Shown: one piece after another, positions 2,856 through 17,735 of the stretch | Position numbering within the stretch: position 1 is the first letter of the stretch | How the letters are laid out: every line of letters begins with the position of its first letter | From: Gammaproteobacteria bacterium | GTDB taxonomy: Bacteria; Pseudomonadota; Gammaproteobacteria; SZUA-152 | Direction: 5' to 3' | Assembly: GCA_013151355.1 (NCBI GenBank) | Contig: JAADIL010000125.1 | Location: 1 to 32,802 of the forward strand | Length of the DNA: 32,802 bases | Made by a program: the position numbers and the translations under genes | The notes under the pieces: generated by a model | The model's input: only the letters and a program-made list of their open reading frames with translations | Database searches by the model: none | What the model was told of the DNA's origin: nothing

Positions 2856-3020
2856 GAGTCTGTCGGACTCAGGATGAATCTACTGCGGAAAATTCATTTT
2901 GGTCCATTTTTTCGATTCTTTTCGTTGAGTATGTCCAATATTCGCCTCAAACGATCAAAAAAATGGACTCAAAATGACTTTCCCTTGCTACGATTCTCTG
3001 AGCCCGACAGACGTCCTGGA
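2856..3020. mobile_element. MITE-like long imperfect inverted repeat
   Basis: Left arm GTCTGTCGGACTCAGGATGAATC..GCGGAAAATTCATTTTGGTCCATTTTTTCGAT pairs with the right arm, whose reverse complement is GTCTGTCGGGCTCAGAGAATCG..GGAAAGTCATTTTGAGTCCATTTTTTTGATCG. The core recurs at 32536-32645. Confidence 0.6.
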
Positions 3021-15423: not shown

Positions 15424-15436
15424 CAGATGTGGGAGT

Positions 15437-15530
15437 TTTGCTTTTTGCTTGAGGCTTTATTGCTCGACTAACTCGCAAAGCACCAGAAAATTCTATTCGT
15501 AGTGGTCGAGTCATGTATCAGGAATAACGC
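15437..15530 (-). mobile_element. REP-associated tyrosine transposase (RAYT)-like 5' relic, left copy
   Basis: Minus-strand start MTRPLRIEFSGAL resembles the RAYT N-terminus (MARPLRIEFPGALYHV). About 85% identical over about 85 bp to 17641-17735. Confidence 0.6.
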
Positions 15531-16512: not shown

Positions 16513-16936
16513 CGAGGGGAAATGGGGCTGTGAGGCCTCTGATCTACCCGCCAGCTTTCTCAGGTTTTCCTGATATTCTGTTGAAAAGGACTGATATATG
16601 ACCTATATCAAGGTCTTAAATTCATCCAATATCAGGTGTTTTATGCGACAAATTTTAGCGAGCTGTTCTGCATAGAGAAAAAGAAAGAGAAAAAGAAGAC
16701 ACCCATCAAATAAAAACTTTGCTCAAACCTATCTCCCAGAAACATTTGCAACACCATGATCAGAAATTTATGGTTTTTGCCAGACAGGCAAAAAATCGAA
16801 AAATTTCCGGCAAACAAACAGATTTTATTTATTTACCCTAGTTGCTTATCCAGGCGTTATGCATCCATAAAGCCTGTAGTTTGACAAAAGTCACCCCAAG
16901 AACTAAAGTCTAGTCATACTAGTCAGAATCATAGGT

Positions 16937-17205
16937 ATGATTATGAAAAATAATACGTGGCAATTACAAGAAGCAAAGAGTAAATTTAGCCAGCTGGTTG
17001 AAGATGCGATAAACAAGGAACCACAAATCGTCACAAAACATGGTGACATGGTGACAAGGCGGTGGTGATTTTATCATTTGAGGAATATACCAAAATCACC
17101 AAACCAAAAACGGATCTGGTAAAGTTTTTGCGGGACTCTCCCCTGGCAGAAGCAACGCTTGAAATTACAAGAAGCAAAGATATTCCAAGGGATATCAGTT
17201 TATGA
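16937..17205 (+). pseudogene. Phd/YefM-family antitoxin, frameshifted by an 8-bp tandem duplication (truncated product ends at 17068)
   Basis: MIMKNNTWQLQEAKSKFSQLVEDAINKEPQIVTKHGD-[frameshift]-KAVVILSFEEYTKITKPKTDLVKFLRDSPLAEATLEITRSKDIPRDISL*. Period-8 tract at 17038-17056. Confidence 0.88.
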
Positions 17206-17630
17206 AATACCTTCTTGATACCTGTGTAATCTCAGAAGTGATAAAACCAAAGCCAGACAGAAAAGTTCTCGGATGGCTAAAAAATCAAGATGAAAAAAGC
17301 CTGTATCTCAGCGTGCTCACATTTGGTGAAATCGAAAAAGGTATTGAGAAATCAGTTGATGAGAGGAAAAAAAACAAACTCAGATTATGGGTCGAGGAAG
17401 ACTTAAAGCAACGTTTTGAAGGGCGAATACTCCCAATAGATATGCAAGTGGCGTCCAGGTGGGGAGAGATACAGGGCAAGTCAGAAACAGCAGGTAAACC
17501 ACTTCCTTCAATTGATGGATTAATAGCGGTTACAGGTCTGGTAAACAATTGTATTGTAGTTACAAGAAATATATCGGATATGCAGCAAAGCTCCGTGGAA
17601 TTGCATAATCCCTGGGGCAATAATGCATAA
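17202..17630 (+). CDS. PIN-domain toxin (VapC/FitB-like)
   Basis: 142 aa; MKYLLDTCVISEVIKP, SVLTFGEIEKGIE, PSIDGLIAVTGLVNNCIVVTRNISDM; ATGA overlap with the antitoxin stop. Confidence 0.92.
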   Translation: MKYLLDTCVISEVIKPKPDRKVLGWLKNQDEKSLYLSVLTFGEIEKGIEKSVDERKKNKLRLWVEEDLKQRFEGRILPIDMQVASRWGEIQGKSETAGKPLPSIDGLIAVTGLVNNCIVVTRNISDMQQSSVELHNPWGNNA

Positions 17631-17640
17631 CGAATCAGGT
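17623..17640 (+). repeat. 18-bp island-end motif ATGCATAACGAATCAGGT, copy 2
   Basis: Identical to 8343-8360; contains the toxin stop codon. Confidence 0.75.
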
Positions 17641-17735
17641 CTTGCTTTTTCCCTGAGGCTTTATTGCCCGACTAATTCGCAAAGTACCAGAAAGTTCTAT
17701 TTGTAGCGGCCTGGCCATGCATCACAAGAAGGGCA
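17641..17735 (-). mobile_element. RAYT-like 5' relic, right copy
   Basis: Minus strand MARPLQIELSGTLRISRAIKPQGKSKT; diverged direct repeat of 15437-15530. Confidence 0.6.

Follow-up and report, generated by a model that had tools for sequence, protein, structure and literature searches.

A Phd/YefM-PIN toxin-antitoxin module carrying an antitoxin frame split by an exact 8-bp tandem duplication

Type II toxin-antitoxin (TA) modules that associate a Phd/YefM antitoxin with a PIN toxin of the VapC family are the closest described systems to the locus addressed here, which resembles them in gene order, family domains, ATGA overlap between the two genes and a promoter accompanied by a palindrome. 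It differs from them in that its antitoxin frame is broken by an 8-bp duplication, the C-terminal half forming a separate open frame. Among solved structures, the toxin is nearest to FitB from the FitAB module of Neisseria gonorrhoeae (2h1c, 2h1o and 2bsq; 2.6e-23). FitA is a ribbon-helix-helix antitoxin, whereas the antitoxin found here is of the Phd/YefM type, its nearest solved chain being 2odk. Slipped-strand phase-variable genes also carry, within a coding frame, a tandem unit whose length is not divisible by three, but only two units are present here and no variation is seen among relatives. As in degraded or orphan TA modules, such as the orphan VapC and VapB of M. tuberculosis (PMC7354431), one partner is damaged and the other intact; in contrast to these modules, both halves of the damaged antitoxin remain open and the toxin start is still overlapped.

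The window, i.e. the whole stretch of DNA that was analysed (32,802 nucleotides), is one entire contig of the 2.94-Mb assembly G000 of a gammaproteobacterium, which is 84% complete and consists of 278 contigs. The features of the module are as follows.

16881-16909, + strand: promoter-like TTGACA-17-TAAAGT of the module (10/12 matches)
16910-16922, + strand: palindrome CTAGTCATACTAG, likely antitoxin operator, intact; the motif is found upstream of relatives
16937-17068, + strand: ORF1, Phd/YefM antitoxin, N-terminal portion (PF02604, TIGR01552), truncated by frameshift, 43 aa (41 aa from ATG 16943)
17038-17056, + strand: exact tandem duplication, ACATGGTG twice followed by ACA; 8 bp more than in relatives
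17056-17059, + strand: AAGG, read as a putative Shine-Dalgarno-like motif, 5 nt upstream of GTG 17065
17062-17205, + strand: ORF2, antitoxin C-terminal half including the toxin-binding tail (open frame, weak PF02604 match, conserved tail positions)
17202-17630, + strand: FitB/VapC-like PIN-domain toxin, 142 aa, intact (PF01850, 2.1e-13; FitB 2h1c, 2.6e-23; 89% identical orthologue)

The assembly does contain the lesion. It is an exact doubling of 8 bp (17038-17053), written ACATGGTG then ACATGGTG then ACA, whose matching run extends to 17056; when the window was shuffled 30 times with a Markov model, period-8 runs of at least 11 matching bases averaged 0.03 per shuffled window. The antitoxin is therefore not a single continuous frame, the break being located at 17038-17068. 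A first-pass annotation had claimed that a Phd-like antitoxin has lost its frame through an exact tandem duplication of 8 bp while the adjacent PIN toxin is intact, and the sequence, the frames and the one-unit relatives all bear this out. It had also claimed that removal of 8 bp yields a full Phd-like antitoxin. A genome of the same genus (G009) carries the module and shares 85% of its DNA sequence over 16880-17631; the alignment has a gap of exactly 8 bases at the duplication, and G009 encodes an uninterrupted antitoxin of 84 aa.

The comparison was extended to 80 related toxin loci from public genomes, in which antitoxin frames were judged by a fixed-length check. An uninterrupted frame of antitoxin length is found in 72 of these 80 loci (including L084, which qualifies through a fusion), and the antitoxins of nearly all relatives end with the 4-nt ATGA overlap. 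None of the six nearest relatives, which belong to species different from that of G000, carries the extra 8-bp unit. Judged from these sequences, the duplication is therefore derived and a single unit is ancestral. In the ancestral form, the unit is flanked by short repeats (ACA-TGGTG-ACA), and ACATGGTGACA, with ACA at either end, is compatible with simple slippage; replication slippage would thus have caused the duplication.

The relatives of the toxin (46-89% identity) are distributed over many phyla and include members with 65-73% identity in assemblies of Spirochaetes, Omnitrophota and Anaerolineae. Furthermore, L048, from a Methylophaga assembly, and L049, from a methanotrophic endosymbiont of Bathymodiolus, encode identical antitoxins. 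Together with the spread of the toxin over phyla, this identity points to wide horizontal transfer. The closest relatives carry recG but no gpsA within 1.5 kb, so that a comparison at gpsA-recG revealed no empty site. Among 50,697 phage records, the sole match is an unannotated relative of the PIN toxin with 33% identity in Pseudomonas phage 62-2 (OR621022.1:12040-12459).

Repeats lie on either side of the module. A dispersed non-coding repeat is present to its left (16680-16827), with copies sharing 71-83% identity on contigs C259, C232, C1, C192 and C262, two of them at contig ends. Moreover, an 86-base direct repeat, 84% identical between its copies, occurs directly after gpsA (15435-15520) and after the toxin (17639-17724), so that the entire 2.2-kb stretch holding the module is flanked.

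Upstream of the antitoxin, the homology with the orthologue begins on the left at the TTGACA box, which is also present in L041. A motif corresponding to the palindrome, CTAGWC-N2..4-CTAG, is found upstream of 50 of 76 relatives, versus 57 matches in the whole 441 kb of those loci. This enrichment makes CTAGTCATACTAG a candidate antitoxin operator, and probably the actual one. Most relatives carry one copy of this type of sequence; in L109, the operator-like CTAGACAGACTAG occurs five times within the 190 bases upstream of the toxin, which starts at 3001.

The toxin is adjoined upstream by an antitoxin of the Phd/YefM family, whose PF02604 domain is divided over two frames here; relatives encode a full-length antitoxin. 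ORF1 matches positions 2-34 of this Pfam profile at 5.8e-8; the start of the relatives' antitoxins corresponds to its ATG at 16943, and it terminates at a TGA (17066-17068), its peptide ending in ...TKHGDMVTRRW. A second frame, open between 17047 and 17205, contains KAVVILSFEEYTKITKPKTDLVKFLRDSPLAEATLEITRSKDIPRDISL and matches positions 32-69 of PF02604 below the cut-off (E 7e-4). ORF2, which lies in this frame, comprises 47 aa from GTG 17062 or 46 aa from GTG 17065. The invariant positions of the antitoxin cluster in W6-G34 and F59-R80 (L84 is almost invariant), and each of the open frames retains one cluster; ORF2 keeps all the conserved tail positions (F, SPL, R, R and L). As read at the DNA level, the locus is a damaged or split Phd/YefM-PIN (VapBC) type II module and not an intact member. 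In the first-pass annotation, the truncation was taken to remove the toxin-neutralising C-terminus. This claim is unproven, since the frame encoding the C-terminus is open and overlaps the new stop at a GTGA. A programmed -1 frameshift was also considered, and reading of 17039-17068 revealed no slippery heptamer of the X XXY YYZ type.

The toxin itself is above the cut-off for PF01850, and its residues D6, E43 and D105 are matched by acidic residues of FitB in the alignment and would provide the three acidic residues of a PIN active site. It does not reach the NCBIfam VapC equivalog NF047863 (59.7 bits for a cut-off of 140).

Two -4 stop/start overlaps are thus arranged in series: the stop of ORF1 overlaps the GTG start of the ORF2 frame (GTGA, 17065-17068), and the stop of this frame (TGA, 17203-17205) overlaps the ATG of the toxin at 17202 (ATGA, 17202-17205). 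Overlaps of this type, ATGA or GTGA, are the commonest native coupled geometry, and reinitiation drops almost to zero over about 20-40 nt, coupling in native pairs being nearly lost at spacings of about 20-38 nt (PMC10666635). In another study, strict translational coupling was observed in 13 of 14 overlapping pairs tested (PMC6728339). Translation of the toxin is expected to need a ribosome that finishes the antitoxin frame at ATGA. As 133 nt now separate the new stop of ORF1 from the start of the toxin, coupling would imply that the toxin comes mainly from ribosomes that restart within the C-terminal half, or that none is made. Without reinitiation, the frameshift would silence the toxin along with the antitoxin; with reinitiation at GTG 17065, a toxin-binding C-terminal peptide would be made together with the toxin. 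The cell would tolerate either a silenced pair or a peptide accompanying the toxin, and coupled translation would therefore explain why the lesion is tolerated. Several features count against this explanation. An AGGG belonging to the toxin is located about 10 nt before its start, so that de novo initiation may occur, and a weak hairpin predicted just 3' of the GTG (17064-17100, z -1.45) may hinder reinitiation. In addition, the GTGA overlap is not remarkable, since a start codon would by chance fall in a -4 overlap at 19% of the possible positions for such shifts in 72 relatives.

On balance, the locus probably results from the recent and ordinary breakage of a widespread mobile TA module, whose split antitoxin would be tolerated through the coupling of the toxin to the C-terminal half. 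According to this explanation, a recent slippage event would have duplicated 8 bp in a chromosomal module made of a Phd/YefM antitoxin and a FitB/VapC-like PIN toxin, splitting the antitoxin into pieces of 41-43 aa and 46-47 aa, and the module would most likely be heading to decay. In a small parsimony comparison, the toxin displays 9 synonymous and 3 nonsynonymous changes unique to the branch (3/12), and the antitoxin pieces together display 5 and 3 (3/8). Nonsynonymous changes are below a simple neutral expectation in both cases (p about 1e-4 for the toxin and about 0.01 for the antitoxin). Their small number implies that most of the branch predates the lesion or that the pieces are still functional, unless a normally intact gene was misassembled. 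The counts look purifying and are compatible with a recent lesion, with a split gene that works and with misassembly of an intact gene, without discriminating among them.

Other altered antitoxins are found in the family. In L084 (2105-3004), the last ~35 residues of the antitoxin are fused in frame to the end of an ORF assigned as TruA-like from reading; the DNA-binding half is missing, and the usual ATGA overlap and an intact toxin are present. L063 (2700-3004) carries an independent frameshift in the middle of the antitoxin, near a T run, with both halves open and an intact toxin. In L114 (1704-1929), a different N-terminal part is associated with a similar toxin-binding tail, which suggests an exchange of antitoxin domains, and L118 has an altered antitoxin tail. 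Palindrome-like insertions with inverted ends are located at the antitoxin/toxin junction of L055 and L061, ~100 bases upstream of the toxin start (3001), where they eliminate both the usual stop of the antitoxin and the overlap of this stop with the toxin. The toxins of all six loci have no stop within the matched stretch. Broken or rebuilt antitoxins next to intact toxins are thus not rare in the family, each of these cases coming from a draft assembly.

The duplication could also be an assembly error or the allele of a minority strain in this metagenome-assembled genome, i.e. not fixed. The assembly is fragmented and incomplete, and a free PIN toxin combined with a broken antitoxin is expected to be costly. 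However, the duplicated unit is not a homopolymer, the locus is in single copy, with no second, intact copy in the assembly, and frame-breaking tandem duplications show no excess in a 279-kb sample of the same genome (40 seen versus 40.8 expected). The purifying-looking substitutions do not decide the matter, as an allele that is normally intact would be expected to show them just as much. Globally, this explanation is unlikely, although it deserves to be kept in mind. It appears more doubtful that the antitoxin is a functional split protein, i.e. that its halves are produced by termination-reinitiation, that the C-terminal peptide neutralises the toxin and that selection maintains this state. 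The GTGA overlap preceded by AAGG and the retention of every conserved tail residue would fit such a state, as would the tail-only fusion beside an intact toxin in L084, the different N-terminus of L114 and the two halves kept in L063. C-terminal antitoxin fragments are also known to form complexes with toxins, such as VapB5 53-86 with VapC5 and CcdA 37-72 with CcdB (reviewed in PMC4803016). Nevertheless, the same split is present in no second genome and its long maintenance is unproven, the overlap has the chance frequency given above, and the N-terminal piece, in which part of the Phd/YefM core is missing, is probably unable to act as a repressor. The related proposal of a naturally split antitoxin, in which the GTGA and ATGA form a chain and the toxin is produced only by ribosomes that have just made the neutralising peptide, is tentative and rather unlikely.

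Two further explanations, which the first-pass annotation had listed as options, are very improbable. A reversible slipped-strand switch between one-unit and two-unit antitoxins could operate because a change of one unit alters the frame and an 11-bp match run permits misalignment. Two repeat units are associated with low slippage rates, and phase-variable loci would be expected to carry a tract of several units. Among the six nearest relatives the unit is never repeated, the altered antitoxins of relatives carry different lesions, and the genome-wide sample mentioned above shows no excess; this option thus finds no support. A literature search found no such switch in an antitoxin and nothing relevant on reversible 8-bp duplications or phase-variable antitoxins. 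Either an already inactive toxin or an antitoxin acting in trans would make the loss of the antitoxin harmless, and it is hard to credit that one of them applies here. The toxin is full length, with its putative catalytic residues retained and few nonsynonymous changes, which argues against a dead toxin. A search of the 84%-complete genome revealed no other antitoxin with this tail; its three other Phd antitoxins have unrelated C-termini and are apparently paired with RelE/ParE/YoeB-like ORFs. This leaves the trans-acting option unsupported, although such a gene could be in the missing part of the genome.

The locus provides a natural test of how a cell survives the loss of an antitoxin. The conserved stop/start overlap may protect cells by tying synthesis of the toxin to that of the C-terminal half of the antitoxin. 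If the split works, the DNA-binding and neutralising parts of these antitoxins would be separable in one mutational step; if it does not, the locus would illustrate the routine decay of a mobile module.
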